Source of the DNA: Acidimicrobiales bacterium | GTDB lineage: Bacteria; Actinomycetota; Acidimicrobiia; Acidimicrobiales; JACCXE01 | Assembly (NCBI GenBank): GCA_035546775.1 | Contig: DASZWD010000049.1 | Coordinates: forward strand, 1 to 64,000 | Reading direction: 5' to 3' | DNA: 64,000 bases | Shown: positions 413 through 15,697 of the stretch, piece after piece | How the letters are laid out: each line of letters begins with the position of its first letter | How positions within the stretch are numbered: the first letter of the stretch is position 1 | Made by a program: the position numbers and the translations under genes | The notes under the pieces: model-generated | The model's input: only the letters and a program-made list of their open reading frames with translations | Database searches by the model: none | What the model was told of the DNA's origin: nothing

Positions 413-456
413 GGTGCCTCCTGGTCTGATCGGGAGGCGAGTCGTCACCTCCACCG

Positions 457-540
457 CACATCCACGTACGACGCGGGGCGCGAAAGCGCGACGCGAAATT
501 TCTGATCGCGCTTTCGCGGCGCCGCGCGTACGTGGATGTG
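457..540. promoter_or_regulatory. Near-palindromic divergent promoter with two copies of a shared 31-base motif
   Basis: Two copies of TCGCGCTTTC-N11-CGTACGTGGA lie back to back: on the minus strand at 491-461 and on the plus strand at 506-536. The outer arms (457-470 and 527-540) are perfect 14-base inverted repeats. The motif ends 48 bases before the leftward GTG at 412 and 45 bases before the rightward ATG at 582, so both genes would get similar leaders. Element spacing is promoter-like (TCGCGC as -35, CGTACG as -10). A third copy with identical spacing heads the pilus operon at 11525-11555. Whether a sigma factor or a repressor reads it cannot be told from sequence. Confidence 0.65.
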
Positions 541-581
541 TTCGGTCCGCCCCGGCCGGCGGGGCGGACCAGGAGGGCTCG

Positions 582-1577
582 ATGAAGTTCCTGTTCGCCA
601 TCGCAGGCTTTGTGATGGGGACGCCAATCGCGATCGCGGCCGTGTTCACCGGACCGAACGCGACGACGACCGCGCCCTCTGCCGCCGCCCGCGCCGAGAT
701 CCCAGCCGACTTGCTGCCCGTCTACATGGCGGCGTCGCTCACCTGTCCAGGGCTTCCGTGGCAGGTCCTCGCCGCGATCGGATGGGTCGAGTCACGCCAC
801 GCTCACGGGACCGCGGACCCGCGGACCGGCGATGTCGCCCCGCCGATCATCGGCCCGCCGCTGGACGGGCGGAACAGCACACGCGCGATCCGTGACGTGT
901 CGCAGCCCGACGGTTGGGCGCATGCGCTCGGGCCGATGCAGTTCCTGTCCACCACGTGGGCGAGATGGGGACAGCTCGCGCCCGACCGGCCGCCCGACGC
1001 GACACCGAACATCCAGAACGCGTGGGACTCGATCTACTCGGCTGCCGCGTACTCGTGTGCTGGCGCGGCGAGCGTCGACGACGTCCACGCCGCGGTTCTG
1101 CGCTACAACCATTCCGAGGCGTATGTCCAGCAGGTCATCGCGAAGGCGACCGAGTACGGCCTCGGCTCCGACGAGTCAGCCGACGGCGCGACATTCACTG
1201 GCTCGGGCGACGCCGTCGTCCGCGCCGCCATGACACAACTCGGCGTGCCCTACCAGTGGGGCGGCGAAACACCAGGTGTCGGCTTTGACTGCTCGGGGCT
1301 CGTCCAGTGGTCTTACGCCCAGATCGGCGTCGGTCTCCCGCGCACCACCAGCCAACAGGTGCTCGTCGGAGTCGCGGTAGCCGACGCCGCAGACCTCCGG
1401 CCCGGCGACCTCCTGTTCACGCGCAGCACCAGGAACGGGAGCGTGGTCGACTTCGGCCACGTCGCCATTTACGCGGGCGGCGGCAAGGAGGTCGTTGCTC
1501 CGAAGACGGGCGACGTCGTGTCACTACGTGCGGTTAGCTACAGCTCCTTGCAGGCCACGCGTCGCATCGTCAATTGA
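582..1577 (+). CDS. VirB1-like cell-wall hydrolase: lytic transglycosylase plus NlpC/P60 peptidase
   Basis: A 331-residue exported enzyme. Residues 1-22 form a hydrophobic signal anchor. Residues 42-195 are a lytic-transglycosylase-like domain with the catalytic glutamate in GWVESRH (Glu70) and an ALGPMQF core motif. Residues 210-331 are an NlpC/P60 (C40) domain with catalytic Cys237 in FDCSG and His293 in FGHVAIY. Together they would cut both the glycan strands and the peptide cross-links of peptidoglycan, as enzymes of this type do to make room for a conjugation or secretion channel. ATG 582 is preceded by AGGAGG at 571-576, which rules out longer in-frame starts. It is transcribed alone from the divergent promoter at 506-536. 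Confidence 0.9.
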   Translation: MKFLFAIAGFVMGTPIAIAAVFTGPNATTTAPSAAARAEIPADLLPVYMAASLTCPGLPWQVLAAIGWVESRHAHGTADPRTGDVAPPIIGPPLDGRNSTRAIRDVSQPDGWAHALGPMQFLSTTWARWGQLAPDRPPDATPNIQNAWDSIYSAAAYSCAGAASVDDVHAAVLRYNHSEAYVQQVIAKATEYGLGSDESADGATFTGSGDAVVRAAMTQLGVPYQWGGETPGVGFDCSGLVQWSYAQIGVGLPRTTSQQVLVGVAVADAADLRPGDLLFTRSTRNGSVVDFGHVAIYAGGGKEVVAPKTGDVVSLRAVSYSSLQATRRIVN

Positions 1578-1777: not shown

Positions 1778-4261
1778 TCAGCTCGATGTCGTCGTGGGGA
1801 GCCGACTCGCCTCCAAAGGACCGTCAGCGCGGTCGCCGGCTTCCTCGATGAGGACGACGAGTCGGTGCGCTTGGCCTTCCTCGTACGCCCACTCGTAGCC
1901 ACCGGTCGTGCTCTCGAAGGGCAAGCCGCGCACGAGCCGAAGTGCTTCTCCCCACGTCTCGGAATGGATGCTCTCCTCAAGCAGCGCGGCATCCGTGAAC
2001 ACGAACGGCCCGAGGCGGTAGCGATGGTTGTCGACGTGTCGCAGATGGTGGTTGCCTTGCGGATCGAGGCCCAGCATGCGGCGCGCCTTTGAAACGGTCT
2101 CGTTGAAGGCTGCTTGCGTGGGCGCGCCGTCGGGCCACAGCGCAGTCCTGAGACGACCGTCGTCGACGCCGTCGGGATGCATCGCGAGGTACGCCACTAG
2201 TTCGACGCTGCGTCGGCGATCGATTGGCTGTTGGCCGCCAACGATCTCGACCGGACCGAGCACCTTCACCATCACATGCTTTGGCGGGACGATCGGCTCA
2301 CCGAGTAGGTCGAACGAGAGAGGAATTTGCTCCGGACCGACGGTGAGAGGAGCTGTCGGCTTCGCCTGTCGCAGATCGAGCAACTCTCCAGGCTCCAGGT
2401 CTGCGGCGACCTGTAACAGCTCGCCGGACGCCTCCAGGACTTCCGGTGGCAGGTGAGCAGGTGTGAGTCGCAGGCCGACGGGCTTCAGCACGAGCGTGTC
2501 GGCCTCGACGCAGAGTTCCCGGTCGAAGTCGCCGTCGGCGACACCACCGACGACGACGGCGACGCCGCGGTAGACGTGCGCGGTCTTCAGCAGGCGGTCG
2601 AGTTCCGCTTGCGGCTCCGCGACGAGGACAACGATCGGCGTGATCACATCGGACGCATCGTCGACGCGGGCTTCGAAGGCGGTCGTTGGATGCGCCGAGC
2701 CGACCTCCGTGAGTGCGGCGGCTTCGCTCTCTATTTCGTCGATGACATCGGCGAGACGTTCAAACACCCGCGCCCTTCCGGCAGCGTTAAAGCCCGCCGG
2801 CGGCCGGCCGACGAGGATGACATTCACGTCATCCGCGCGGTTACTGGTGACGAGGTCGAGCGCGAGCGTCCACAGGAGCGACGCTGCGTCGTGGGGATCA
2901 CCACCGACAAGCGTTCGCGGCGAGGCCTCGAGATCGATGAGAAGCGAGCGTTCGTCGAGGGCGCCAATGGTGACGAGCGCGGGAGCGGGTCCCGCCTGCG
3001 TGTTGGCGATGGGCCGGATTTCGTCATCGGGCACTGATGCAGACAGCGTCCACGCACGGCCATCGGCTTCGACAGCGAACGGACCCATAGGCGCGTCCAC
3101 CGCATCGGCCAAGAGGATTTCGATCGCCTCGGGTCCGACGCTTACGGCTGAGAGGCTTGGACACGGGCCACGTTTGCGCTGTCCAAGGCAGTTCGCCAGC
3201 ACTCGCAGCGCCATGTCGAGACGGTCGAAAGGTGCCGTGACCGCGGCGCGGCGAAGGTGCACTTCCGCCTGCGCCGCTTTCGGTTCCGGGAGCCGAGGCA
3301 TGCGACCCGGAACACGGTGCCGAAGCTGGCGACGGCGGAGCCGTGACAGACAGGCGACTATCCCTGCAGCGACGAGTGCCGAGGCGGCGAGCAGAGGGGC
3401 CACGGCGTAATCGGGATCGTCCTCGGGCGACGGAGCGACATTCGCAGGAGCGCGATCGCTCGTCGGAGCAACCGTGGGTTCCGTCGTGACTGACGGTGAT
3501 GCGGCAGCAAGCGGTGGCTCGGCGGTTGGAGTGGATGGTGCCGCGACCTTGTTGGCCGTGGGCGCACGCGGCACGTCTTCTCCCGGCAACCCGACGGCAT
3601 CAGGCGGCAGGACGAGCGTCCAGCCCGGGTTGATCAGGCTGGGTTCGACGAAGCGACGCCCATCTGGGAACGACCTGTCGCGGTTGAGATCCCAAATCTC
3701 GCGCCAGCGCAGACCGTCGCCGAGGTGCACCTCGGCGAGCTTCCACAGCGAGTCGCGCGGCGCGACCACGCACGTCGGTGAGGGAGTCGGCGGCTGAGCG
3801 GGAGTGGCGGCGGCGGTCTCAATGGCCGTAGGCACTGTCACCGCCATCGCGGCTGGGATCGGAGTGATGGTCGCGATGCCGGAAGGGCGCAAGGTGCCGA
3901 TCAACAGAGCCGCGGAGACGACGAGTTCGCGCACGAGCGGTTGGACGAAACCAGCGACCGGCAAGGAGCGCGCCTCGCGCCCGCGCATCCAGGCGCGCAC
4001 CTCGACGACGAAGCTCGCAGCCAAGAACGCCCACAGCACCCAAGCCGCGCAGGCGAGCGACTTGATCACCACCGCGTCCGAGATGGACGCGCCGTCCAAC
4101 GCGTGAGACACGTCGTTCCACGATGGGACGAGGGTGGGCAGCGGCCAACCGATGAACCGAACCAACGCCCATGGGACACCGACGAGAAGGACGCCGAGCG
4201 ACAGCAACGCAAGGCCAGCACGACTGAGACGCCAAACGGAACGGAGGCTGCGGCCCATCAC
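1778..4261 (-). CDS. Multi-pass LysM protein with C-terminal winged-helix (SARP/BTAD-type) domain
   Basis: An 827-residue protein that seems to join a wall sensor to a DNA-binding module. Hydrophobic segments lie near residues 14-38, 66-88 and 105-124. A LysM domain follows at 164-220, then a Pro/Thr/Ala-rich linker, a fourth membrane segment (285-305) with basic residues after it, and a long cytoplasmic part. From about 665 there is an OmpR/SARP-type winged helix, then a short BTAD-like stretch that ends in a low-similarity tail, so the usual all-helical BTAD domain looks cut short. It is the last gene of the pilus operon and overlaps its neighbour in a GTGA junction. LysM-BTAD proteins are known companions of actinobacterial Tad loci; the signalling role is inferred. 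Confidence 0.8.
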   Translation of the reverse strand: MMGRSLRSVWRLSRAGLALLSLGVLLVGVPWALVRFIGWPLPTLVPSWNDVSHALDGASISDAVVIKSLACAAWVLWAFLAASFVVEVRAWMRGREARSLPVAGFVQPLVRELVVSAALLIGTLRPSGIATITPIPAAMAVTVPTAIETAAATPAQPPTPSPTCVVAPRDSLWKLAEVHLGDGLRWREIWDLNRDRSFPDGRRFVEPSLINPGWTLVLPPDAVGLPGEDVPRAPTANKVAAPSTPTAEPPLAAASPSVTTEPTVAPTSDRAPANVAPSPEDDPDYAVAPLLAASALVAAGIVACLSRLRRRQLRHRVPGRMPRLPEPKAAQAEVHLRRAAVTAPFDRLDMALRVLANCLGQRKRGPCPSLSAVSVGPEAIEILLADAVDAPMGPFAVEADGRAWTLSASVPDDEIRPIANTQAGPAPALVTIGALDERSLLIDLEASPRTLVGGDPHDAASLLWTLALDLVTSNRADDVNVILVGRPPAGFNAAGRARVFERLADVIDEIESEAAALTEVGSAHPTTAFEARVDDASDVITPIVVLVAEPQAELDRLLKTAHVYRGVAVVVGGVADGDFDRELCVEADTLVLKPVGLRLTPAHLPPEVLEASGELLQVAADLEPGELLDLRQAKPTAPLTVGPEQIPLSFDLLGEPIVPPKHVMVKVLGPVEIVGGQQPIDRRRSVELVAYLAMHPDGVDDGRLRTALWPDGAPTQAAFNETVSKARRMLGLDPQGNHHLRHVDNHRYRLGPFVFTDAALLEESIHSETWGEALRLVRGLPFESTTGGYEWAYEEGQAHRLVVLIEEAGDRADGPLEASRLPTTTSS

Positions 4262-4680
4262 GCCGGCCCGTCCCGGACCGAACGAACACCGTGTGCCGTG
4301 CCCGACGCATGAATCGTGGCCGGCCGGACGCCGACAATGCCGAGGATGGCGAGTCGCTGCGTCACGGTCACGTGCACGGTCACCGTGTCACCGTTGACCT
4401 CGACGGTGCCAGCGTGGCCGGAACGGGCGAGGTAGTCAGCGACGCGCTGGCGCGCCGCGTCCGGTTGAATGACGACGCCGCCGCCCTGGCGCAGAGTGTC
4501 TTCGTCAACGGCTTGCGCGCCCACACGCGCCGCGGCCTCGGCTTCGTCGAACGCCGCGCGCTGGCCTGCCAACATGAAGCCGCCGTCGACGACCAAGCCC
4601 GCGACCGCGAGGAGCGCGACTGCGAACGCGGTCACGAACGCGGTGACCGTCCCGCGCTCGCCGGTGCCTCGCCGGGTCAC
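4258..4680 (-). CDS. TadG-like pilus-assembly protein
   Basis: A 140-residue protein with a short basic leader, one hydrophobic helix (about residues 10-33) ending in a VVDGG motif, and an extracytoplasmic part. The opening resembles the Flp pilus-assembly TadE/G family: a GTVTAF motif just before the helix, then an Ala/Glu-rich amphipathic stretch ending in AARVGA. These minor pilins are thought to prime or cap Tad pili. The start GTG at 4680 overlaps the stop of the upstream TadE-like gene (GTGA), and its own stop overlaps the next gene in the same way. Confidence 0.78.
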   Translation of the reverse strand: MTRRGTGERGTVTAFVTAFAVALLAVAGLVVDGGFMLAGQRAAFDEAEAAARVGAQAVDEDTLRQGGGVVIQPDAARQRVADYLARSGHAGTVEVNGDTVTVHVTVTQRLAILGIVGVRPATIHASGTAHGVRSVRDGPA

Positions 4681-5105
4681 TGGTCCGTCCCGCGGTAGGC
4701 GTCGATCGGCTCGGTGAACGACGCGGTGACGGTGCGCGACGCCGGCAGCTTCAGCCCGCTGAGGTCGGCGAGGTCGACCGCACAGGTCACGGTGGCGGTG
4801 ACGGAGCCTCCGGCACGGAATTCGCCGGTGTTGAGTGCGACGTTCAGTGTCCGGCAGGTGACGTCGCCCTCATGCAGTCGCGCTCGCGCGGCGGAGGCAC
4901 CGTCGGCGGCGGCGGAGTCGGGCCCGCGAGCAATGGAGCCGGCACGTGCGGCGTCTCGCGCCGCGGCGTCGACGTCGGCACGCGCCTGCGCGTAGCGGCC
5001 GCCCATGACGACGAGCAGGAGCATGGCGACGAGCGCGGGCGTCAGCAGCACCAGCTCGGCCGCCGCTGAGCCGGCATCGCCACGGAAGCGAGGACGTCGG
5101 ATCAC
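4677..5105 (-). CDS. TadE-like pseudopilin (second copy)
   Basis: A 142-residue protein with the TadE signature at its N-terminus: the GSAAAELVLLTP motif at residues 12-23, where the glutamate after the cleavage region is typical of prepilin-like substrates, followed by a hydrophobic helix to about residue 39. The rest is an extracytoplasmic beta-rich domain with two cysteines that could form a disulfide. It overlaps the upstream TadE-like gene by four bases (GTGA) and the downstream TadG-like gene likewise, so the three minor pilins are translated as a block. Confidence 0.82.
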   Translation of the reverse strand: MIRRPRFRGDAGSAAAELVLLTPALVAMLLLVVMGGRYAQARADVDAAARDAARAGSIARGPDSAAADGASAARARLHEGDVTCRTLNVALNTGEFRAGGSVTATVTCAVDLADLSGLKLPASRTVTASFTEPIDAYRGTDQ

Positions 5106-5482
5106 CCGGGGTCCTTCCGGAAACGCTCGACCGGGCTCGATGCGCGTGCCTTCACCGGCAGCGAGAAGCCAGGCAGCACGGTGACGGCGTGTCCTTGTAT
5201 TGATACGGCGGCGTTGTTGGCGTCTCTCGTCGCGGTGATGACTGGCTGTCGCACGATGGTGGGGCCGAGCCGCGTCAGGAAGTCGACGGCCCGGGTCCGC
5301 CCGGCGTCGGCGGTCGACCCTTCGAGGCGCGCCGTGCGAACGCCTTCCTGGGCCGCGGCCTGCACGACGTGCTCGGCGTGGTACCAGAGCCCGAACTGGA
5401 CGACGAGCATCACGAGGAACAGCAGGACCGGCGTCAGGAGAACGACTTCGGTGGTTGCCGAGCCTCGCTCCCTAGTTGCCAT
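5102..5482 (-). CDS. TadE-like pseudopilin (first copy)
   Basis: A 126-residue minor pilin. The N-terminus has the GSATTEVVLLTP motif (residues 7-18) and one long hydrophobic helix, then an Ala-rich amphipathic region and a small extracytoplasmic domain without cysteines. ATG 5482 is chosen because it puts the motif at the expected distance from the start and overlaps the end of the pilin gene by only 11 bases; a longer frame would run deep into that gene. TadE and TadG-type proteins are processed by a prepilin peptidase, but no TadV-like peptidase gene is seen in this window. Confidence 0.82.
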   Translation of the reverse strand: MATRERGSATTEVVLLTPVLLFLVMLVVQFGLWYHAEHVVQAAAQEGVRTARLEGSTADAGRTRAVDFLTRLGPTIVRQPVITATRDANNAAVSIQGHAVTVLPGFSLPVKARASSPVERFRKDPG

Positions 5483-5678
5483 CTGTCTGGATGTTGTTGG
5501 CCTTGTTCGTGACCTTGAGGACGATGATCGCTCCGGCGGCAAGAGCCAACGCGGCGAAGATCGCCGTGATGATGACCTTCTCCGTCGTCTCGCCGCGTTC
5601 GTCGTGACGAATGCTGCCGAGACGCAGTTCGAGCCAGCACTGGATGTACGCCAGCGCGGGATGGTTGATGAATGTCAC
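5472..5678 (-). CDS. Flp-like major pilin candidate
   Basis: A 68-residue protein with one hydrophobic helix (about residues 33-54) preceded by a charged DERGETTEK segment and followed by a short polar tail. Size, single helix and position between tadC and the tadE genes match actinobacterial Flp (type IVb) pilins, which form the Tad fibre. The start is GTG 5678 with a strong AAGGAG site six bases upstream, the best ribosome site in the operon and in line with a protein needed in many copies. The classical Gly-Glu-Tyr processing motif is not obvious; GETTEK is the nearest match, so processing is uncertain. Confidence 0.75.
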   Translation of the reverse strand: MTFINHPALAYIQCWLELRLGSIRHDERGETTEKVIITAIFAALALAAGAIIVLKVTNKANNIQTDGN

Positions 5679-5705: not shown

Positions 5706-6602
5706 TTAGATCCCATGCAGCACCTGCTCGATGGCGGGGTAGACGAGAAAGACGATGAACCCGAGCATGAGGAGCACGACGGGCAGCGTCATGCGCTCGG
5801 TCGCGGCTTGCGCCGCGGTTTCGATGTCGGCGAGGCCGTGCAGCCGGAGTGAGCGCGCCTTGGCGGCGAGCGAGCTGCGGACGCGCGCGCCTTCGTCGCC
5901 GGCGAGCGCGGCGCTTGCGGCCAACTCGCCAAGCTCGGGTACCGCGAGGTCCTGACCGAGACGGGCCAATCCCGCCCACGGCGTCTCACCTAGCAGGCGC
6001 GCTTCGAGCAGCGCGCGGCGCAGTTCGTCGAAGGCCCAACCGCTGCCGGCCTCGGCGCCGTCATGCAGAGCGGAGTCGACGCCGCGACCGCCAGCGAGAC
6101 TGATCGACACGATGTCGAGGAACGAGCTGAAGGCGTGGCGGAAGCTGCGGCGCCGCTCCGCCGCCTTCGACTTCAACAGCAGCGTGGGGTAGAGGAACCC
6201 GACAGGCGCCAAGGCGAGCGACACCCACAGCGGGAACACGAAGCCGACGTGGACGCCGCCCGCCCACATCAACGCGGTGGTGACCGGCGCCCACAGCAGA
6301 CCTAGGGCGAAGAAGGCGGCGCGCTGAGAGACGTGTTCGGCCGCGGTGGTGTTCGTTATGCGAAGGTCCGCAGCGTCTTCACCCGCGAGGCGGGCGCCGA
6401 GAGGCGTCTCGACGAGCGGGACGCCCAGCAACCGCGTGATCGGCGAATGGCGCGGCCCGTCCGTGAAGCCGAGCGGGGTCGGGTGGCGGCGGCGCAAGCT
6501 CGCCAGCGCGAGATCGAGCGGGACGGGCGCGGGGATCAAACCGGATAGGAGCACGACGAGGCCGACGCCGACGCCGCAGCCGGCGATGAGTGCCGGCGTC
6601 AC
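5706..6602 (-). CDS. tadC: Tad secretion inner-membrane platform protein TadC
   Basis: A 298-residue polytopic protein of the type II secretion GspF/TadC family. Helices are visible near the N-terminus (about 5-24), in the middle (about 95-135) and at the C-terminus (about 270-295); a large cytoplasmic domain between them carries the F-domain features FLDIVSISLAGG and TERMTLPVVLLMLGF. TadB and TadC form the platform turned by the TadA ATPase to extrude pilin. The GTG start at 6602 overlaps the tadB stop (GTGA). Adjacency to tadB and tadA makes the family call secure. Confidence 0.9.
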   Translation of the reverse strand: MTPALIAGCGVGVGLVVLLSGLIPAPVPLDLALASLRRRHPTPLGFTDGPRHSPITRLLGVPLVETPLGARLAGEDAADLRITNTTAAEHVSQRAAFFALGLLWAPVTTALMWAGGVHVGFVFPLWVSLALAPVGFLYPTLLLKSKAAERRRSFRHAFSSFLDIVSISLAGGRGVDSALHDGAEAGSGWAFDELRRALLEARLLGETPWAGLARLGQDLAVPELGELAASAALAGDEGARVRSSLAAKARSLRLHGLADIETAAQAATERMTLPVVLLMLGFIVFLVYPAIEQVLHGI

Positions 6603-7444
6603 CGTTCGACCGCCTGTGGGCGAACGGCCAGGAATCGCTCCGGCGCGACGAACTCGCTCATCTGCGACAGCCATCGCAGCGCGATCCCCCAGCACAACGC
6701 GACGCAGGCGAGGGTGAGCTGCCCGGTCGCGGATCCGTAGACGTCGAGGTACTTGCGGTTAAGGAGGATGAGCCCGATGGCGGTGCCAGCAGTGCTCGCG
6801 GCGATAACGCGCACCGCGGTACGAAGCCGGGCACGGGCGGCTTCGACGCGTAGGCGCATGCCGGCTTCCTCGCGGGCCGACTCGGCGAGTGTTCCGAGCA
6901 GTTCGGCGAGGTCACCGACCGAGCCTTGCCACGCGAGGGTGAGCGCGGCGACGACGAGGTCGGCGGTCGGGTGCGCTAGGTCGGCGGCGAACTCTTGGAG
7001 CGCAACCGACAGCGGGACGCGTTCGAGCCGGACGGCGAGGTTCGTCACTTCGAGCTTGATCGGTGCCGGCGCGATCGCGGCCGTGGTGATCACAGCCTGT
7101 TCGAGACCGTGTGCGCCTGACATCGTGTCGCGCAGCATCTCGGTCCACGCCGCGATCGCCTCGGTACGGGCCGTCGCTCGGTCCTGTGTCGCCTTCGATC
7201 CGAACAGTTCGGGCGTGAACCATCCGGCGGCCGCGAGGGCGGCGGCGGCGACCGGCCACCTCGTGACGAGAGCAGTCGGCAACGCGAGCGCAGCCGCGAG
7301 CGTGACGCGTTGGCGGACGTCGGCCTGGACGTTCACCCGGCGCGGGACGGGCGCGCTGGCGGATGGGCGCTGTCGCAGCCCGTCGACGAGGATCCACGTA
7401 CCAAACGCAAGACCCGCTCCCGCGAGCGCGGCGAGCAAGTTCAT
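6599..7444 (-). CDS. tadB: Tad secretion inner-membrane platform protein TadB
   Basis: A 281-residue GspF-type membrane protein. It has an N-terminal helix (about 3-20), two more around 48-75, the soluble F domain with MSGAHGLEQAV (a usual family motif) near residue 110, and two C-terminal helices (about 212-262). Paralogous to the downstream TadC; the two probably form a heteromeric platform under the TadA hexamer. The ATG at 7444 overlaps the tadA stop (ATGA) and the gene ends in a GTGA overlap with tadC, so the three core motor genes are tightly coupled. Confidence 0.9.
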   Translation of the reverse strand: MNLLAALAGAGLAFGTWILVDGLRQRPSASAPVPRRVNVQADVRQRVTLAAALALPTALVTRWPVAAAALAAAGWFTPELFGSKATQDRATARTEAIAAWTEMLRDTMSGAHGLEQAVITTAAIAPAPIKLEVTNLAVRLERVPLSVALQEFAADLAHPTADLVVAALTLAWQGSVGDLAELLGTLAESAREEAGMRLRVEAARARLRTAVRVIAASTAGTAIGLILLNRKYLDVYGSATGQLTLACVALCWGIALRWLSQMSEFVAPERFLAVRPQAVER

Positions 7445-8751
7445 CGCCACCACGCGCTTGGGTTGTCGTGCAGCGACGGGTCGTAACCGGCGACGACGAG
7501 GTCGTCGAGCAAGTCGGTAGGAATTGGTGTGCCCGGGACGGCGCGGCCGTCGGGGCCGGGACGGAACAGTTCGTTGGTCAGGACCTGCTTACCGTCGAAT
7601 CCCGTCACTTGACGGACGCTGGCGACGTGGCGGCCCGAGCTGGTCTTGGCGATGAACACCAACAGGTCGATAGCCGCGGCAGCGAGGAGCAGCGTGGCTT
7701 CCATCGGAAGCCGCTCGGGCGACTGCATCGCGTAGAGCGCGAGCTTGCGGAACACGCCGCTCGACGAGTCGGCGTGGATGGTGCACATCGAGCCGTCGTT
7801 TCCTTGGCTCATGGCGTTGAGCATTGGGATGACCTCGTCGCCGCGGACCTCGCCGACGATGACGCGATCGGGGTTCATGCGCAGTGACATGCGCACGAGC
7901 TCGGCGGCCGTCACTTCGCCGACGCCTTCGACGTTGGCTTCTCGTGCTTCGAGCGCGACGCAGTCCGGATGGATCTCCGGGAAGCGGTCGAGGCCGAGTT
8001 CGAGTTCGGTCTCGATGGTGACGATCCGCTCCTCGGGCGGGATCTCCGACGCGAGGGCGCGCAACATCGTCGTCTTCCCTGCGCCCGTCGCCCCGGCGAT
8101 CATCAACTGCAGGCGCGCCCGGACTGCGGCGGCGAGGAACGACGCGAGGCCCTCGTCGATGGCGCCGAGCCCTTGCAGGTCGGCGAGGTCAACCTTGAGG
8201 TAGCGGTGCCGGCGGATAGCGAGGCACGGACGTGCGCACACCCACGCCGTGGCGAACAGTCGCGACCCGTCGGGCAGCTGGAGGTTGAGTTCCGGTCGGC
8301 TCGCATTGAACTCGCGCTCGGTGAGGCCGTGCCGCCGCCCGATCTCGCGCAGCAGTTCGATCATCTCGGCGTCGCTCGCCGCGATCGCGGGGCCGGGCAC
8401 CTTCGTGCCGTCGGCGTACTCGACGAACACGACGTCGCACCCGTTGGCGTGGACGTTCATGATCCGCTCGTCGTCGAGCAGCGGCTGGAGGCGTCCCAGT
8501 TGGAAGATGCGGTCGAAGACTGCTTGCGCGAGCGCGGCTTCCTCGTCCGGACCGAGGACCGGCTCGTTGCGGGCAAGGCAGTCGCGGGCGTGGGCTTCGA
8601 GTTGGTCGTTGATGAGGCTGCGCGCCAGCGCCGCCTGGTCGTCGGCGTCGAGGCGACGCCCGCCTGTCGCGAGCGCGGCTGAGGTCTGTTCGGTGAGACC
8701 CGTGGCGACGGCGGTACGTATGCGTAGGACGAGGGCTTCGTCGGTCGTCAT
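7441..8751 (-). CDS. tadA: CpaF/TadA-type secretion ATPase
   Basis: A 436-residue motor ATPase of the VirB11/CpaF family, near the usual 400-470. The C-terminal half has Walker A GATGAGKT at residues 220-227, the Walker B region RVIVGEVRG at 296-304, and the His box CTIHAD at 323-328. The N-terminal helical part (1-85) and the following sensor domain with PELNLQLPDGSRL are typical of CpaF. It would energise pilin export and assembly at the membrane. ATG 8751 overlaps the tadZ stop (ATGA); a longer reading frame upstream would run through tadZ and is not real. Because the element also looks conjugative, a VirB11-like role in DNA transfer cannot be excluded. Confidence 0.93.
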   Translation of the reverse strand: MTTDEALVLRIRTAVATGLTEQTSAALATGGRRLDADDQAALARSLINDQLEAHARDCLARNEPVLGPDEEAALAQAVFDRIFQLGRLQPLLDDERIMNVHANGCDVVFVEYADGTKVPGPAIAASDAEMIELLREIGRRHGLTEREFNASRPELNLQLPDGSRLFATAWVCARPCLAIRRHRYLKVDLADLQGLGAIDEGLASFLAAAVRARLQLMIAGATGAGKTTMLRALASEIPPEERIVTIETELELGLDRFPEIHPDCVALEAREANVEGVGEVTAAELVRMSLRMNPDRVIVGEVRGDEVIPMLNAMSQGNDGSMCTIHADSSSGVFRKLALYAMQSPERLPMEATLLLAAAAIDLLVFIAKTSSGRHVASVRQVTGFDGKQVLTNELFRPGPDGRAVPGTPIPTDLLDDLVVAGYDPSLHDNPSAWWR

Positions 8752-9476
8752 GCCAGCGCCGCTTCGGCCGGTGCAACCTCGATCGTGTCGAGGATTGATC
8801 GCGCGGAGCGGACGAGGCGACTCTTGCGTCCGGCGCGGGTACTCGCCGCGCCGTGGAGCGCATCGACGCCGTCGCGATCGACGGCGATCGTTGTCACGTT
8901 CGCGACGCCCGTCGCCCGCGCCACGTTGGCTGCGCCGTATGGCCGGTCGCCCACAAGCACGAGGCCGATCCGGCCACGCGCCGCCGCGGTGAGCGCTTCC
9001 TGCCGTTCCTGGAAGTGGGCGACTCCGGTGAGGTCGGGGTAAAGCACGACGATCGTGAAGTCGGCGGACCGTATGACGTCGAGGGATGGCGAGTTGCGCG
9101 ACCACCGGCCGCAGTCGATGACCCCGTTGCCGAGCGCGCCGACGGCGCCGCTGAGGCGTGACGCGACTGTGGCGACCGAGGCCTCCGCCTGGTCGAGATT
9201 GGTCGGGCCGAGAACTGCGGTGCCGCCGCACGGCAGAGGTTGCGCGTGGCCTGCAACGTCGACTTCGGAGTTGGCGTGACGTGCGCTCGCCGCCATCGTG
9301 ACCAGGCCCGGGTCGAAGGCGAGCCCGAGCCGGGCCGCGAGATCGCCACCGGCCGGGTCGGCCTCGACAAGCACGGCTGGCGATTCGCCGGAACTTGCCC
9401 ACGCCGCGACGAGCGCGAGAGCGAGCGTCGTCGCACCGGGTGAGTGCTTGGCAGAGCAAACAGCAATGAGAGTCAT
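8748..9476 (-). CDS. TadZ/CpaE-like MinD-family protein with degenerate P-loop
   Basis: A 242-residue protein of the ParA/MinD/CpaE superfamily, which places Tad machinery at defined sites in the cell. The N-terminal strand MTLIAVCSAKHSPGATT is where a KGGxGKT deviant Walker A is expected; the motif here reads HSPGATT, so the second lysine is missing, while VEADPAGGDL (switch region) is kept. Loss of the lysine suggests weak or no ATP hydrolysis, as in several TadZ and CpaE proteins that work as localisation factors. It is coupled by ATGA overlaps to the SAF-domain gene upstream and to tadA downstream. Confidence 0.8.
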   Translation of the reverse strand: MTLIAVCSAKHSPGATTLALALVAAWASSGESPAVLVEADPAGGDLAARLGLAFDPGLVTMAASARHANSEVDVAGHAQPLPCGGTAVLGPTNLDQAEASVATVASRLSGAVGALGNGVIDCGRWSRNSPSLDVIRSADFTIVVLYPDLTGVAHFQERQEALTAAARGRIGLVLVGDRPYGAANVARATGVANVTTIAVDRDGVDALHGAASTRAGRKSRLVRSARSILDTIEVAPAEAALA

Positions 9477-10162
9477 CGCGGTGCCAGCACGACGGCGAGA
9501 CGGCCACCTGCTCCGGCGACGGCGAGCGTCGCGGCTTCGGTTGGCGGTACCGCCAGCGAGATCGATACGCCGCCGCCGCTGTCGAGCAACTTCTCGACCG
9601 AGACGACCGTCACCGCGATCGGCGCGGCGATGTCGGCCTGACCGGTCGCCGACGCCGCCTCGGGCGGCATCACGATGGCGAGCACTCTGTCGCCGGGCCG
9701 GAGTCCCGAGGGGAACTGGCCCGGCTTGAGCACTGCGCCGACCACGGCAGCGGACGGATCGACGGTCGGTCCGGTCGCGAGCTGCGCGGGGTTGAACAGG
9801 CTGCCGGGAATGAGGTTCACGGCCGCGGTCTTGCCGACGACTGTTTCGCGGGCGGACCAGGGCGTCGTCCGCACGCCGGTGATCGTGCCGGCCAATGTCT
9901 CGCGCAAGTCGGCGTCCTGGATCACCTGACCGGCGGCGACCGGTCGCGCGATCGCAACGACGGCGTGCCGGCCGCCGATGTTGGCGTAGAGCAGACCGGC
10001 CACGAGCGCGCTGACGACGACGATGAACGCGCCGGTCACGATGCGGGTGCGGTTGCGAGCAGCGGCCTTAGCAGTCGCGCCGGTGGCGGGTGGCGGGGTG
10101 GATGCCATCCGTCGCATGGCGCCGTTTGCCGCTGCGGTCGGCGCGGTTCGGGTTGCAGGCAC
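9473..10162 (-). CDS. SAF-domain pilus protein (CpaB/RcpC-like)
   Basis: A 229-residue protein with a basic cytoplasmic leader (1-40), one membrane helix (about 41-62) and a SAF domain starting near residue 68 (ARPVAAGQVIQDADL), followed by a beta-rich segment. CpaB/RcpC proteins with this layout sit at the outer face of Tad machines and may touch peptidoglycan. The start is GTG 10162, with AAGGAGGG a few bases upstream. A 19-base gap separates it from the secreted-protein gene upstream, the only real gap in the first half of the operon, so the strong ribosome site may reset translation here. Confidence 0.85.
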   Translation of the reverse strand: MPATRTAPTAAANGAMRRMASTPPPATGATAKAAARNRTRIVTGAFIVVVSALVAGLLYANIGGRHAVVAIARPVAAGQVIQDADLRETLAGTITGVRTTPWSARETVVGKTAAVNLIPGSLFNPAQLATGPTVDPSAAVVGAVLKPGQFPSGLRPGDRVLAIVMPPEAASATGQADIAAPIAVTVVSVEKLLDSGGGVSISLAVPPTEAATLAVAGAGGRLAVVLAPR

Positions 10163-10181: not shown

Positions 10182-11024
10182 CTAGCGGTTCACGGCCTCG
10201 ATCTCCGAGACACGGACAGTGAAGGTGGTGGTGCGGCTGACGTTGCCGAGGTCCCCGCCGCCCGCCGCACCGGCGGCGGTCCAGGTGACGTGCCACGTGG
10301 CGGTGGCGGTCGCGGTGAACGCGCCGTTGGGCGCCGAAGCGGAACTGCGGCGGTAGGTGTAGGCGCAGTCGGTGTGCTGCTCGCTGGACGGCCGGTTGGG
10401 GTCGTAAGGAGTTCCCGGCCCGGTGCACGTGACGATGTCGCCGTTCCCCATCGCCCAACGGACCGACTGCGGCGCCGCGGATGCGGTGACGGTCACCCCG
10501 CCCGCACTCGCGGTGGCCGCCACCGGCTGCCACGCGGACGGGTCGACCCACATCCACGTCTCGAGGTTGACCACCTGCTCGCCGGTCTCGGGCGGGTTGA
10601 GATGAACGTCCGGCAGCGGGATCGGCGCGCGGCCCGACGCCTGCGCGGCGAGCTGAGCCGGGCTGATGGCGCGATCGGCGATCCAAATGACCGTCGCGCT
10701 CGACTGGCCGTTCGCGTCGACGCAGACCTTGCGGTACCAGGCTCCCGGTTCCTGACCCCGCGGCGGACCCGATCCGTTGGCCGCCATCGTGTCAGCAATC
10801 CCTTGGCTCTCGGCGTCGAGTCGCTCGTAGGTGCACGTCCGATGGCCGCCGCCTCCGCCGCCCTTGCCGGCGCTGCCGCCGGACCCGTCGCTCGTGCCGG
10901 CGTTAGCCCCGACCTGTGTGCCGTCACTGAATGCGTCGCCGGTGCCGTCGGCGCGGGCGACGACGGGACTAACACCGATGATCAGCCCCGCCACGGCGAG
11001 CATGGCGATCACGCGGCGGTACAC
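10182..11024 (-). CDS. Secreted protein of unknown function in pilus operon
   Basis: A 280-residue exported protein. Residues 1-26 are a signal peptide with an Ala-x-Ala cleavage site (VVARADG). A Gly/Ser-rich linker follows, then a Cys-containing domain and, from about residue 165, a beta-rich domain with SVRWAMGNGD and later SRTTTFTVRV, reminiscent of immunoglobulin-like or PKD-type folds. The start is GTG 11024, with GAGGG six bases upstream and inside the end of the lipoprotein gene, so the two are coupled. Similar secreted proteins lie next to CpaB-like genes in actinobacterial Tad islands; an extracytoplasmic structural or adhesive role is a guess. Confidence 0.7.
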   Translation of the reverse strand: MYRRVIAMLAVAGLIIGVSPVVARADGTGDAFSDGTQVGANAGTSDGSGGSAGKGGGGGGHRTCTYERLDAESQGIADTMAANGSGPPRGQEPGAWYRKVCVDANGQSSATVIWIADRAISPAQLAAQASGRAPIPLPDVHLNPPETGEQVVNLETWMWVDPSAWQPVAATASAGGVTVTASAAPQSVRWAMGNGDIVTCTGPGTPYDPNRPSSEQHTDCAYTYRRSSASAPNGAFTATATATWHVTWTAAGAAGGGDLGNVSRTTTFTVRVSEIEAVNR

Positions 11025-11518
11025 CCGTCGCCCTCGCGCTTGAGGTTGCTCACCTTCCACGCTCCAGCGTCACGGACGAGCGACGCGGTGATGAGGTGGC
11101 GCACACCCGTAGCCGTGTCTTTGCGCGTGCCCGTCGCCGCGTCGTAGATGCCGGTGTTGTCGAGGTAGCAGTCGCGGACAGACGCGCTCTCGCCAAGGAT
11201 GGAGAGGACACGAGGCGACAGGTTGAGGTTCCCTCGGATCACTTCACCGCCCGACTTGCGGGCAAGGAACGCTGTACGCAGGGTTTGGAGTTCCGGATCG
11301 GTCGCGTGATCTCCGAGCTTCGGGCTCTGCGGATCCATCGGATCGGCGGCGGCGAGATAGTCGTCCCAGAAGGCGCGGTACGCAGTGAGCACCTCGTGAT
11401 CGGCGGGCGCTGTCGTCGTTGTCGCGCGCGTCTTCGAGGACTTGTCGGCGTTCTTGTCGCCACCGTTCGAGCACGACGCCAGCAGCGCCACAACGGCGGC
11501 GAGCGTTACGAAATTCAC
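11009..11518 (-). CDS. Lipoprotein, first gene of the pilus operon
   Basis: A 169-residue protein with a signal peptide ending in the lipobox LLASC (Cys17), an acidic/Thr-rich linker, and a globular part that looks like a small NTF2-like or VirB8-like fold (EVLTAYRAFWDDYLAA, then beta strands with SLVRDAGAWKVSN near the end). It would sit on the outer face of the membrane. GTG 11518 is only six bases from the third copy of the shared promoter motif and has no ribosome site, which suggests a leaderless transcript. The fold is a weak impression; the lipobox is clear. Confidence 0.72.
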   Translation of the reverse strand: MNFVTLAAVVALLASCSNGGDKNADKSSKTRATTTTAPADHEVLTAYRAFWDDYLAAADPMDPQSPKLGDHATDPELQTLRTAFLARKSGGEVIRGNLNLSPRVLSILGESASVRDCYLDNTGIYDAATGTRKDTATGVRHLITASLVRDAGAWKVSNLKREGDGCTAA

Positions 11519-11888
11519 GCCGCGTCCACGTACGCGCGCGAGCGAGAAAGCGCGACGCGTTTCCGGCGATTTCTTCCCGGCTGGAGGTTGGGCGCTACCC
11601 CCGGGCGGCTGTTCGCCGTCCCTTGCTGCCGACCGCTCGAGGCGGTCGCCTCGGTACATCGCACACTTCGTCGTGGCACCTCCAATCGCCACGAACCGCC
11701 AACTGACCCAACAGTGCACCCAATAGGCAAACTCCGCAAGAGCCGCATCTGCGGGTTATCAGGCCTCTGACCAGGGACGCTGATCGACTCAGCGCGCCGA
11801 TCCCAGCCGCGCTGAGGTTTTCGCTGAGGGTCGCGGCGGACGCTCGGGCCACTAGCCGCAGCCAGCGGCTCCGACACGGGAGCGCCCG
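11519..11888. promoter_or_regulatory. 370-base regulatory region between the pilus operon and the sigma-like gene
   Basis: No convincing gene lies here. At the left is the leftward pilus-operon promoter motif (11525-11555). At the right, before the sigma-like gene, are four CGCTGA half-sites: an inverted pair CGCTGA-N5-TCAGCG at 11778-11794 and two direct copies CGCTGAGG at 11810-11817 and 11822-11829, exactly 12 bases apart. A separate hairpin AGCCGC-N5-GCGGCT is at 11854-11870. Repeated half-sites on one face of the helix are what an operator for a dimeric regulator looks like. The stretch 11564-11777 shows nothing I can interpret. Confidence 0.5.
11525..11555 (-). promoter_or_regulatory. 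Pilus-operon promoter: third copy of TCGCGCTTTC-N11-CGTACGTGGA
   Basis: On the minus strand the two ten-base boxes are at 11555-11546 and 11534-11525, separated by exactly 11 bases as in both copies at 457-540. The CGTACG box ends six bases before the GTG start of the lipoprotein, so transcription from a normal -10 distance would begin at or next to the start codon. The motif was not found elsewhere in this window by eye; a partial match near 7392-7400 lacks the other box. Confidence 0.62.
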
Positions 11889-12605
11889 ATGATGACCGAC
11901 CTGTTCACCCTTCTCGACCGTGACTGGCAGACGTGGAGCCGCCGACCCGCGGCGCAACACGCAATGGCCCGGTGGCACAACGCGGCGCCCAACCTCCGGT
12001 CGTTTACATCTGTCGACGAGCTCATGGCGGTGTTCGAGGACAGGAGCGCCCGCGACGAGCACGACGACGTGCTCCTCGCACTGTTGGCGGCAGCGCGCAG
12101 CGACGCCGACGCGCGCCGTGCGGTCGTTCAGATCCTTCGAGCTGGCCTGGTAGCGCTCGCGGTTCGAGCCCGGAAGTGGTCCGACTGGGACGAGGCCTCG
12201 AGCGCGGTCGTCGCTGCCGCCCTCGATCGCATCGGGCGGTATCCGGAGCACCGCACGGCGCGGGTGGCCGCAAATCTCCTCGGAGACATCTGGCACTCCG
12301 TTTGGGCCGAGCGTCAGATCGAACTTCGGCACCGAGCCGGTTGGACCCACCGTGTCGACGTCGAAGCGATCGACACGATCGGCGAAAGCGACGAAGCCGG
12401 CCGCGGCGAAGAACTCATGACGCTGATCGACGAAGCGGTCCACCGGCGGCGCATCACGCCGCGCGATGCGCGCATCGTCGTGCTCCACCGAGTACTCGGC
12501 TACACGAACGTCGAGGTCGGTCGCATCGAGGGTCAGCGGCCGTGCACGATCCGCAAGCGGCGTCTCGCCGCGGAGGCGGCGATCACGAAGCTGGCCGTGG
12601 CGTAG
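11889..12605 (+). CDS. Sigma-factor-like DNA-binding regulator of the element
   Basis: A 238-residue, mostly helical protein without cysteines or membrane segments. The C-terminal part (about residues 175-235) reads like sigma region 4: RRITPRDARIVVLHRV, then the helix-turn-helix YTNVEVGRIEG and the basic recognition region CTIRKRRLAAEAAI. The N-terminal half could be a degenerate region 2, though no clear -10 recognition motif is visible. Proteins like this are common in actinobacterial integrative elements. A GGGAG lies upstream of ATG 11889/11892. It is followed after 11 bases by the excisionase-like gene. As the only sigma-like gene in the element part seen here, it is the natural candidate to read the three-copy motif; this is inference. 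Confidence 0.68.
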   Translation: MMTDLFTLLDRDWQTWSRRPAAQHAMARWHNAAPNLRSFTSVDELMAVFEDRSARDEHDDVLLALLAAARSDADARRAVVQILRAGLVALAVRARKWSDWDEASSAVVAAALDRIGRYPEHRTARVAANLLGDIWHSVWAERQIELRHRAGWTHRVDVEAIDTIGESDEAGRGEELMTLIDEAVHRRRITPRDARIVVLHRVLGYTNVEVGRIEGQRPCTIRKRRLAAEAAITKLAVA

Positions 12606-12616
12606 GTGGCCATGCG

Positions 12617-12832
12617 ATGACCACATCGAATCCGACCGCGCGCCATGAAGTTCCTGACCTGCTCGACATCACGGAGTTGGCGGAACACCTCGGTGTCAAC
12701 GTTCGTCACGTGCGCCGGCTCATTGCAGAGCGTCGCATCCCGTTCATCAAGTGGGGCCACCTGATCCGATTCGACCCGAGCGAGATCGTGGAGTGGCTCG
12801 ACCGCAGCCGGCACGAGAGCGCCGGGCGCTGA
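12617..12832 (+). CDS. Excisionase-family helix-turn-helix protein
   Basis: A 71-residue protein with a MerR-like winged helix-turn-helix: DITELAEHLGVNVRHVRRLIAERRIPFIKWGHLIRF, then DPSEIVEWL. Such short proteins are recombination directionality factors (Xis) or regulators in phages and integrative elements. The gene starts 11 bases after the sigma-like gene and ends about 200 bases from the att scar, the usual place for xis. No tyrosine or serine integrase follows it here; the partner recombinase must lie at the other end of the element or has been lost. Confidence 0.82.
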   Translation: MTTSNPTARHEVPDLLDITELAEHLGVNVRHVRRLIAERRIPFIKWGHLIRFDPSEIVEWLDRSRHESAGR

Positions 12833-13028
12833 CTTTCATGGCGACAGCCGTCCGAACTCAGGCCCGTCAAAGCTCACGGCTCGTGCCCCACCCGTGCCCC
12901 ATGTACTGGTCTTTTCTGGACCTCAACCGGTCCTGGCGGTCACTTCCGGACACGCCGATTTTAGCCCGTCTAGCAGCGGAAATACCGATATCCCCAGGTC
13001 ACCCAGCACGTTCGGGATATCGCCTGCG
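12833..13028. other. Element end: integrase-site-like repeats next to the att scar
   Basis: No gene is supported. Two direct repeats CGTGCCCCA at 12882-12890 and 12893-12901 are 11 bases apart, one helical turn, as arm-type integrase sites often are. A nine-base inverted repeat CGATATCCC / GGGATATCG at 12986-12994 and 13014-13022 (19-base loop) directly abuts the tRNA fragment; it could be a core-flanking recombinase site or a terminator. Protein binding at any of these is inference. Confidence 0.4.
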
Positions 13029-13078
13029 CGCGCCTGAAAAGCGTGAGGTCACCGGATCGACGCCGGTCCCGACCACCA
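13029..13078 (+). other. tRNA-Phe 3' fragment (putative attR scar)
   Basis: The 50 bases fold as the 3' half of a tRNA. Anticodon stem CGCGC (13029-13033) pairs with GCGTG (13041-13045) around the loop CTGAAAA, anticodon GAA (Phe). The T stem ACCGG/CCGGT (13051-13055, 13063-13067) encloses the seven-base loop ATCGACG, where the first base is A instead of the usual T. The acceptor strand CCCGACC, discriminator A and encoded CCA end at 13078. The matching 5' acceptor strand GGTCGGG and D arm are absent upstream, so this is not a working gene. This is the expected right-hand scar of integration into tRNA-Phe; the intact gene should flank the left end outside the window. Confidence 0.85.
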
Positions 13079-13120
13079 AGTACGTACAGGTCCGACGGCG
13101 GCGGACTATCGCAGCACGAG

Positions 13121-13897
13121 CTATTCGGCGTGGCGGTGTCCGCTGCGTTCGTGGATGAGGTTCGCGCGCAGCAGCAGGTCGCGATCGTGCAGCAGATCGG
13201 CGGGCGTTGTCGTGAGCAGAATGCCGTGGTCTTCACCGAACACGATGCAGCGGTCGGCCACGGAGTCGAGGCTGTCGAGGTCGTGGGTCGCGACCACGAT
13301 GGTCTTGCCGGCGTGATTCAGCTCTTCGACCAGCTCCAGCAGCCAGTACTGCGTGCGGGGATCGAGGGCGGCGGTGGGCTCGTCGAACAAGAGCACTTCG
13401 GGGTTCATAACCAGCACCGATCCGATCGCCACCCGTTTCTTCTCGCCGCCCGAAAGTTGGTACGGCGCCCTGTCGGCGAGGCCGGCGATGCCGAGCATGC
13501 GCATCGTGTCGAGCACGCGGGCGTCGACCTCGTCGCGGCTCATGCCCATGTTGCGCGGTCCGAAGGCGAGCTCCTCGCGCACGGTCGGTGAGAACACCTG
13601 GGCGTCGGCATTCTGGAAGATGAAACCAACGCGGCTACGAAAGGCGCGGTTGAACTGTTGGTCTTCGAGCGTGTCTTCCGTGACGTCGGCGCCGAAGGCG
13701 CGGTACGTGCCCGACTCGGGGAACAGCAGCCCGTCGAGCACCTTGAGCAGCGTCGACTTTCCGCAGCCGTTGGCGCCGAGCAGCGCCACGCGCTCACCCT
13801 GGGCGACGGTGAGCGACACGTCGTCGAGCGCGACGAAGCGATCGAGGTACTTGTAGGTGACGTGCTCGACGACGAGCAGGTCCTCAGACACCGACAT
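13121..13897 (-). CDS. cbiO: ECF cobalt/nickel transporter ATPase CbiO
   Basis: A 258-residue ABC ATPase of the energy-coupling-factor type. It has Walker A GANGCGKST (41-49), Q-loop FIFQNADAQVFSP (the NxDxQ form typical of ECF ATPases), signature LSGGE (148-152), Walker B LLFDEP and the H-loop ATHD. It powers CbiMQ-mediated uptake of Co2+ or Ni2+. It is the last gene of the leftward cbiMQO operon, overlapping cbiQ by 14 bases, and is the first chromosomal gene right of the integrated element; its stop is 43 bases from the att scar. Confidence 0.93.
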   Translation of the reverse strand: MSVSEDLLVVEHVTYKYLDRFVALDDVSLTVAQGERVALLGANGCGKSTLLKVLDGLLFPESGTYRAFGADVTEDTLEDQQFNRAFRSRVGFIFQNADAQVFSPTVREELAFGPRNMGMSRDEVDARVLDTMRMLGIAGLADRAPYQLSGGEKKRVAIGSVLVMNPEVLLFDEPTAALDPRTQYWLLELVEELNHAGKTIVVATHDLDSLDSVADRCIVFGEDHGILLTTTPADLLHDRDLLLRANLIHERSGHRHAE

Positions 13898-14636
13898 CGC
13901 CGGTGTAGCCGCGCGCCGTCATCGCTTGATGTACTTCGTCGGCGAGCGCGTACGCCTTGCCGAAGAGCGCGCCGGCGCTGGCGGCGACGAAGCGGCGCGC
14001 GGTCGCGCCGTCCTCGGCGTTGGTCGTGCGGGCGCGGCGGGCCACGTACATGTCCTCAACCGCACCGAGCAGATAGAAAATGTAGCGGTAGGCCATCGCG
14101 AGCACGACCACGAAGATGCGGGGCACGCCGAGGCTACGAAGCCCCGCCAGCAGCCGGTTCCACTTGGTCGTGAGGGTGAGCAACACCACCAGCGAGATCG
14201 ACACCGCCACGCGCAACACGATCAGCGCGGCGGCCGACGGACCGTGCGCGATCGCGGTGGGAATCACGATGACCCCCGTGAAAATCGGAATGAACAGCCA
14301 GACGCGCATGACGAAGGACGACAGAGACAGCCCGGAGGCGGCGGCGATTGCGAGCGTGGCGACATAGAGGCCTGCCATCACCGCGAGCGAGTGCACGAAC
14401 GCGGTGCCGATGAGCAGGGCCAACGTCGCAACGAGCTTCGCCCGCACGTCGAGGCGTTGCAGGAATCCGCGGTGCGACGCCACGTCGTCGGCGAACATCG
14501 CCTGGCGCATGAGCCGGGAGCCACCGGCCAGCGTCTTGGCGATGTAGTTGCCCTTCGTCCGCTTGCCGATGCAGCCGCAGGGGCACAACCCGACGGTCGG
14601 CTGCAACAGCCAGTCGGGCGCCTGGTCGGAAGTCAT
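13884..14636 (-). CDS. cbiQ: ECF transporter T-component CbiQ
   Basis: A 250-residue membrane protein with about five helices and the CbiQ/EcfT cytoplasmic features: AMAYRYIFYLL and RRARTTNAEDG, then the coupling-helix region ALADEVHQAMTARGYTG near the end that contacts CbiO. The N-terminus is unusual: a CPCGC segment (residues 18-22) with three cysteines before the first helix, which could bind metal. ATG 14636 overlaps the cbiM stop (ATGA). Confidence 0.9.
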   Translation of the reverse strand: MTSDQAPDWLLQPTVGLCPCGCIGKRTKGNYIAKTLAGGSRLMRQAMFADDVASHRGFLQRLDVRAKLVATLALLIGTAFVHSLAVMAGLYVATLAIAAASGLSLSSFVMRVWLFIPIFTGVIVIPTAIAHGPSAAALIVLRVAVSISLVVLLTLTTKWNRLLAGLRSLGVPRIFVVVLAMAYRYIFYLLGAVEDMYVARRARTTNAEDGATARRFVAASAGALFGKAYALADEVHQAMTARGYTGDVGV

Positions 14637-15697
14637 GCGACGGGCGCGGTCTCGGCCGGATGGTCGCGACGCATCAGTCGACTGGCTCCGAAGATCGCCG
14701 CGACCACGATGGCGACGAAGGCAATGCCGGCGACCGCCGACACCAGATAGCCGACAACCGGATGGGTGTCGCCGCCGAAGGAGTACCCGTCGAAGATCGC
14801 GTTGTGCCAAAAGCCGGCGTAGTGCCGCAGCCCCTCCGGCACCGCGTTGAGGTGGTACTGCCGAAGATTGAGATCGTTGGGCGAGTCCTCGCCGAAGGCG
14901 CCGCCGGGCGCAATCAAACCGAGCGGAGCCAACGCGACCATGGCGCCCAGGCCGACGAACGCCCATCGCCATCCAAGTGACCGGGGAGCCGACACATCGG
15001 CGTCGGTGGCGGGCACCGCCGCGTGGTTGACCCGCATCAGCGGCACGTTGGCGCGCTGCAAGTAGGTGATCACACCCACCGTCAGCGCGAACTCGACGCC
15101 ACCGGCGACGGTCAGGTGCGCGAGCGCCATCGCCGGGATCGTCTGGCTGAGGTGGAACGGCGCGTACAACGGGGCGCCGCTGGCCGAATGAAACAGGCTC
15201 GGCTGCACGCCGAACTCGATCGCCGCGGCCAGAGCTGCGAGATTGATACCGACGTAGCCGCCAACACCCGCAGCGAGGGCGCGCCGCCGGGACGTCAACG
15301 AAGTCCGCGACGCGAGCAGCCGGTACACGGCGTAGCCCGCCATCGGCATCACGAAGGCCATGTTGATCACGTTGGCGCCATAGGCCAGCACGCCTCCGTC
15401 GCCGAAGAACAAGGCCTGAATCGCCAGCGCAACGCTCACCGCGATGACCGCCGCCCACGGACCGAGCACAACCGCCACCAACACGGCGCCCACCGCGTGC
15501 GCCGTCGTACCGTCCGGAACCGGCACGTTGAACATCATCACCATGAAGCAATAGGCGGCGCCCAACGCAACCAGGGGCACGTACCGGCTCTTCACGATCC
15601 GGCGCACACGGCGCGCCGCGGTGAACCACACCGGCACCGACGCCGCGTAAAACACGCCGCAGGTCTCCGGGCTGAGGTATCCGTCGGGGATGTGCAA
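14633..15697 (-). CDS. cbiM: ECF transporter substrate-binding component CbiM (CbiMN-type fusion), TTG start
   Basis: A 354-residue membrane protein. In CbiM the N-terminal Met amine and His2 bind the metal ion, so the mature protein must begin Met-His-Ile-Pro-Asp-Gly. That is obtained here only from TTG 15697, which has GGAG five bases upstream; longer starts would bury the motif. The body has the CbiM core (NVPVPDGTTAHAVG and the AYGANVINMAF region). The last 110 residues add two more helices around an extracytoplasmic loop with VPEGL, like the CbiN/PDGLE domain, so this is a CbiM-CbiN fusion. The operator palindrome at 15713-15729 lies just upstream. Confidence 0.88.
   Translation of the reverse strand: MHIPDGYLSPETCGVFYAASVPVWFTAARRVRRIVKSRYVPLVALGAAYCFMVMMFNVPVPDGTTAHAVGAVLVAVVLGPWAAVIAVSVALAIQALFFGDGGVLAYGANVINMAFVMPMAGYAVYRLLASRTSLTSRRRALAAGVGGYVGINLAALAAAIEFGVQPSLFHSASGAPLYAPFHLSQTIPAMALAHLTVAGGVEFALTVGVITYLQRANVPLMRVNHAAVPATDADVSAPRSLGWRWAFVGLGAMVALAPLGLIAPGGAFGEDSPNDLNLRQYHLNAVPEGLRHYAGFWHNAIFDGYSFGGDTHPVVGYLVSAVAGIAFVAIVVAAIFGASRLMRRDHPAETAPVA

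Follow-up and report, generated by a model that had tools for sequence, protein, structure and literature searches.

The window analysed here is the whole stretch of 64,000 bases (bases 1-64000 of contig C49) from an Acidimicrobiales assembly of 75 contigs that is 97.5% complete. On its plus strand, positions 13026-13078 carry a piece of a tRNA-Phe(GAA) gene, running from the 3′ strand of the D stem to CCA, and the question that this locus raises is whether the piece is an attR core that marks the right edge of an integrated mobile element. We found that all 53 bases (53/53) are identical to the intact tRNA-Phe(GAA) genes of three relatives, G001 of the same genus, G002 and G007, and the E value of the match was about 1.5e-21, indicating that the identity is not due to chance. 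In a search of 40 genomes including the own one, the tRNA-Phe core was matched at E <= 0.01 in 38, while none was found in G028 and G037. The fragment comprises the anticodon arm with a CTGAAAA loop (GAA), an AGGTC variable loop, the T arm, the 3′ strand of the acceptor stem, A73 and the CCA at 13076-13078, so that the anticodon arm, T arm, acceptor strand and CCA listed in an earlier note on this DNA were all recovered. That note had also described the 5′ half as missing, and we confirmed its absence from the window, because neither ARAGORN nor Rfam (at the gathering threshold) called a tRNA anywhere in it. However, the proposal that the fragment fixes the boundary between mobile and core DNA to the base did not hold, since the crossover can have taken place anywhere within the 53-bp identical block. 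The 12 bases after the CCA (13079-13090) resemble those 3′ of a corresponding fragment in G001 (L107) and are also partly like the bases after the intact tRNA-Phe of G001, and the core or its flank may reach beyond the CCA.

In the fragment, position 54 of the T loop is an A (window position 13056), which the earlier note had read as an altered first T-loop base. However, A54 was present at all 34 intact tRNA-Phe loci that were read, representing 33 distinct genes (L061 and L176 are the same locus), and in one comparison the T loop began with ATCGA at the tRNA-Phe loci of all 29 relatives. A54 is therefore native to the tRNA-Phe of the relatives, the fragment is undamaged, and "altered" is wrong. 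From the same loci as the A54 tRNA-Phe genes, tRNA-Asp (29/29) and tRNA-Glu (15/15) carried T54, and T54 was likewise found in all 38 readable tRNAs among the 39 distinct ones predicted in the own genome; the 39th, a 93-base tRNA-Asp called by ARAGORN on contig C34 and without Rfam support, is probably spurious and was treated as such. With a tRNA-Phe pattern open at positions 54, 59 and 60, a class-wide search gave matches in 259 of 296 genomes. Within the same order 94 of 96 genomes were matched (own fragment included), and in all 94 the match list was read as showing A54 together with purine 60, while T54 and T60 were found for other orders of the class among the matches listed. In a phylum sample, in which 62 of 296 genomes were matched, A54 occurred in 22 of the 22 matched same-order genomes, in three of four from other orders of the class and in four of 36 from other classes. 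Loci with A54 and purine 60 among the relatives include L048-L076, L109 and L174-L177. The accessible part of PMC7912444 calls U54 universally conserved and treats A54 in the eukaryotic initiator tRNA as a special case. Among literature titles and abstract openings, we found no description of A54 in bacterial tRNA-Phe, which is not proof of its absence from print. Taken together, these results make it quite likely that the whole order has an elongator tRNA-Phe with A54 and purine 60, where U54 and pyrimidine 60 are nearly universal elsewhere, and keeps U54 in its other tRNAs. Such a tRNA would represent a T-loop variant fixed in the lineage, with an A54-A58 contact like that of the eukaryotic initiator tRNA and without m5U54, that is common to chromosomal genes and to the tRNA attachment cores of phages and islands. 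A false clue is thereby removed, and the odd base, being native, points to an order-wide and testable tRNA-Phe variant.

Given the plus orientation of the tRNA 3′ fragment, one would look for element DNA to the left of it and for displaced chromosome to the right. On the left, a 71-aa excisionase (Xis) is encoded on the plus strand at 12617..12832 (TIGR01764, E 4e-11, above the cut-off), followed at 12882..12899, on the same strand, by an arm-type-like direct repeat, CGTGCCC-N4-CGTGCCC. The distances are 49 bp from xis to the repeat, 126 bp from the repeat to the tRNA core and 193 bp from xis to the core. This pattern occurs at exactly three places in the 3.75-Mb genome (the reversed-pattern control gave 0). 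Besides the copy described here, one copy stands at each end of a complete 6.5-kb element located in a tRNA-Pro(TGG) gene on contig C72, whose extent was put at about 230175-236738 or about 230098-236738 of G000:C72 (L162 8099-14739). The tRNA-Pro element is ordered as intact tRNA-Pro, arm repeat, int (a PF00589 match), xis, further genes, second arm repeat and tRNA fragment; its first arm repeat lies 56 bp after the intact tRNA-Pro(TGG), and a gap of about 86 bp separates the second from a 60-bp tRNA-Pro 3′ repeat. Two small ORFs of this element presumably resemble a toxin-antitoxin pair. The two Xis are 71% identical over 62 aa (82.5% over 160 bp of DNA), and at both sites an arm repeat adjoins the core and the tRNA 3′ repeat is about 50-60 bp long. 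However, the tRNA-Pro element has another target tRNA, contains int, measures 6.5 kb and lacks a Tad cluster, and its xis and int lie at the intact-tRNA end, whereas xis in the window lies at the fragment end. From their position, the CGTGCCC-N4-CGTGCCC repeats may be arm sites that the integrase would bind. A comparison of Xis with plasmids gave no match.

The base composition also changes at the fragment. With a simple purpose-made gene finder, mean GC at third codon positions (GC3) was 0.798 in the 12 genes on the left and 0.894 in the 40 genes on the right, and a Mann-Whitney comparison limited to genes of 130 aa or more gave p 2e-6; one or two of the right-side ORFs are probably spurious. 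On the right, GC3 was 0.855 in the first 10 kb and 0.88-0.91 further on, which is near core values. The first gene on this side encodes an ECF cobalt-type transporter ATPase (CbiO; 13121..13897, minus strand; PF00005, TIGR01166 just below the cut-off), and an ORF containing CbiQ follows (13884..15629, minus strand; PF02361). We considered whether the CbiO/CbiQ DNA right of 13078 is itself a second element of a tandem array, so that the fragment would part two elements and not element and core. This would agree with the best CbiO match in G001, which is only 36%, with the different gene that follows the island in G001, and with the best CbiO match in each of seven relatives (G011, G005, G027, G012, G018, G006 and G003), which is not near tRNA-Phe. 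However, we consider a second element unlikely, given the near-core GC3 on the right, a contig with neither a second fragment nor a tyrosine recombinase, and the likeness of the 12 bases after the CCA to those after the G001 fragment.

We then turn to the genes that would belong to the element. From the left end of the window, these encode an NlpC/P60 cell-wall hydrolase (282..1577, plus strand; PF00877; partial homologue at the same place in G040), a large protein with no function assigned (1778..4261, minus; homologue in the G040 cluster), a small membrane protein of the Tad cluster (4258..4680, minus; G040 homologue, 57% identity), two TadE-like pilins (4677..5105 and 5102..5542, both minus; PF07811), a T2SSF/TadC-like protein (5706..6695, minus; PF00482), a membrane protein that we take to be TadB-like (6599..7453, minus; no Pfam match; G040 homologue at the same place, 61% identity), a TadA/VirB11-type ATPase with an uncertain start codon (7441..9507, minus; PF00437, TIGR03819 below the cut-off), a CpaB-like SAF-domain protein (9473..10162, minus; PF08666), a secreted protein with no function assigned (10182..11060, minus) and a putative lipoprotein (11009..11719, minus), the last two with same-order homologues in G065 and G040. 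A 238-aa sigma-70-like regulator (11889..12605, plus; weak TIGR02937 match, below the cut-off) stands next to xis. In G065, a protein with 54% identity to this regulator is followed by xis and int, in the order lipoprotein-sigma-xis-integrase. In G040, the whole cluster of Tad, SAF, secreted, lipoprotein and sigma-like genes is found in the same order as in the window, and beyond it lie a coupling protein (PF02534), a VirB4-like ATPase, a weak TrbL match and an M23 peptidase; no xis or int match was found near this cluster. Relatives of the sigma-like protein were absent from the 46 pattern stretches of IMG/VR, and in the genome contig collection one of 45 pattern stretches was related by alignment, which was the G065 contig itself.

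No T4SS-type transfer genes occur in the 13 kb to the left of the fragment, and among the ORFs scanned there none gave a Pfam match to an FtsK/SpoIIIE-type translocase or a replication gene. Moreover, the VirB4-like protein of G040 has no match in the own genome (G000), which would be explained by an element half left unassembled, but also by an element of another kind. The contig begins inside the element, of which 13 kb is the minimum known. On the basis of the Tad cluster and the synteny with G040, the element is probably a T4SS-type conjugative one whose left half, with the transfer genes and perhaps the integrase, is not in the assembly. Tad clusters can be chromosomal, and the Tad-sigma-xis block might also be resident chromosome that ends beside a scar left by an earlier element, now lost, as an absence of integrase between xis and the site and a G040 cluster with no nearby xis or int would allow. 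However, xis and the genome-rare arm repeat sit between the block and the core, like the arm repeats of the tRNA-Pro element, the GC3 of the block differs from that of the right side, and the sigma-like protein is unmatched in the sister genome G001. A scar of this kind is thus quite improbable.

We further compared the tRNA-Phe locus with those of sister genomes. In G001 (L107, G001:C54), intact tRNA-Asp and tRNA-Phe genes are followed by a 2.6-kb island, a truncated 3′ copy of tRNA-Phe and then another gene; the island gave no integrase match, and its two longest ORFs matched neither Pfam nor PADLOC. In G133, 1.8 kb separates an intact tRNA-Phe from a 3′ fragment. Similarly, G231 carries an intact Glu-Asp-Phe cluster, about 22 kb of DNA and a fragment (G231:C10, L173 1323-1366 to L174 11363), with a probable tyrosine integrase adjoining the intact tRNA-Phe (tblastn E 6e-6, 24% identity) and ORFs within the 22 kb that presumably resemble type I restriction-modification. 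The repeats of the sister genomes begin in the anticodon stem or loop, which is one known crossover region according to the accessible part of PMC4383910. In IMG/VR, six stretches carry the tRNA-Phe core: on three contigs (L179, L180/L183 and L182) it lies near an integrase and without an intact tRNA, and in L178 and L181 it falls within a predicted tRNA-Phe. One of these contigs, of 38,559 bases, has the core at both ends (L180 5368-5401; L183 4-37), with an integrase near one of them. A search of phage records with the core gave no match. Further genomes of the order also gave two tRNA-Phe-like core matches and may carry islands, namely G686 (G686:C1, 3347236 and 3377033) and, at contig ends, G745 and G748. 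Overall, insertion into the 3′ half of tRNA-Phe has recurred within the order, as found in the window, G001, G133 and G231.

These layouts also bear on whether the fragment could be a chance duplication, a pseudogene or an assembly chimera that arose without site-specific recombination. A fragmented assembly of 75 contigs in which several tRNA genes are missing would be compatible with such an origin, but, like its counterparts in three sister genomes, the fragment runs from near the anticodon stem to CCA, and xis and the arm repeat lie alongside it, which makes this origin extremely unlikely. We conclude that the fragment is very probably the attR of an element put by a tyrosine integrase into a tRNA-Phe gene, within its 3′ half, with the element on the left and the chromosome on the right, because xis, the arm-type repeat, the GC3 step and the same layout in G001, G133 and G231 all agree; the earlier note's placement of the right edge of a mobile element here is thus supported. 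The attR itself is an ordinary arrangement, and the order-wide A54/purine-60 tRNA-Phe is more unusual than it.

The other end of the element was sought throughout the assembly. Neither an intact tRNA-Phe nor its 5′ half was found on any of the 75 contigs by a DNA search with the fragment, by Rfam, by ARAGORN or by a search with the tRNA-Asp/tRNA-Phe stretch of G001. Rfam identified 38 complete tRNAs and one fragment, located in C72, over the own genome, and ARAGORN was run on the loci covering these 39 matches. The assembly also has no Rfam-supported tRNA-Asp, the usual neighbours of tRNA-Phe in the relatives being Glu-Asp, and none for Glu(TTC), Trp, Tyr, Lys(TTT) and Thr(GGT); with several other tRNA genes missing, the lack of tRNA-Phe is therefore not special to this locus. 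A gene adjoining the tRNA cluster of G001, which we take to be acyl-CoA-dehydrogenase-like, gave no lead to the cluster in G000. In contrast to G065, the interval from xis to the arm repeat contains no integrase gene, so that int lies either at the unseen left end or has been lost. Eight tyrosine recombinase matches were obtained in the genome, none of them on contig C49. Contig C55, with an integrase 1.4 kb from its left end, was examined as the missing left end and rejected, having no arm repeat and no piece of tRNA-Phe.

With the fragment taken as attR, the attP of the element would have included its own copy of the tRNA-Phe 3′ part. Insertion by the integrase would have restored a complete tRNA-Phe gene at the left end, outside the assembly, and the original 3′ part would have been pushed to the right end, where it now forms 13026-13078. 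Element DNA would then extend at least from window base 1 to about 13025, with chromosome after 13078, and the element may be able to excise. Against the attR reading stand the 13 kb on the left without intact tRNA-Phe, integrase or T4SS-type transfer genes, the missing int after xis where G065 has the order sigma-xis-int, and the position of xis at the fragment end, compared with the intact-tRNA end in the tRNA-Pro element.

AICEs, the actinomycete integrative conjugative elements, target tRNA genes. As described in the accessible part of PMC3218068, they resemble the present element in being tyrosine-integrase/Xis elements of actinobacteria, but no FtsK/SpoIIIE-type transfer or replication gene occurs among the window ORFs scanned. 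The same part of that paper reports AICEs as not found in Acidimicrobidae, as it names the group, to which the host may or may not belong. The tRNA-gene islands catalogued by Islander, as far as the accessible part of PMC4383910 describes them, share the displaced 3′ fragment of a tDNA, a repeat starting in the anticodon region and a nearby excisionase, although the filters given there require an intact tDNA and an integrase, neither of which is in the assembled part of this element. Among T4SS-type actinobacterial conjugative elements, the G040 cluster differs in its coupling protein, VirB4-like ATPase and weak TrbL match, which are not in the window, but has the same succession of Tad cluster, SAF protein, secreted protein, lipoprotein and sigma-like regulator. 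One end of a probably conjugative element has thus been fixed in a poorly known actinobacterial lineage.
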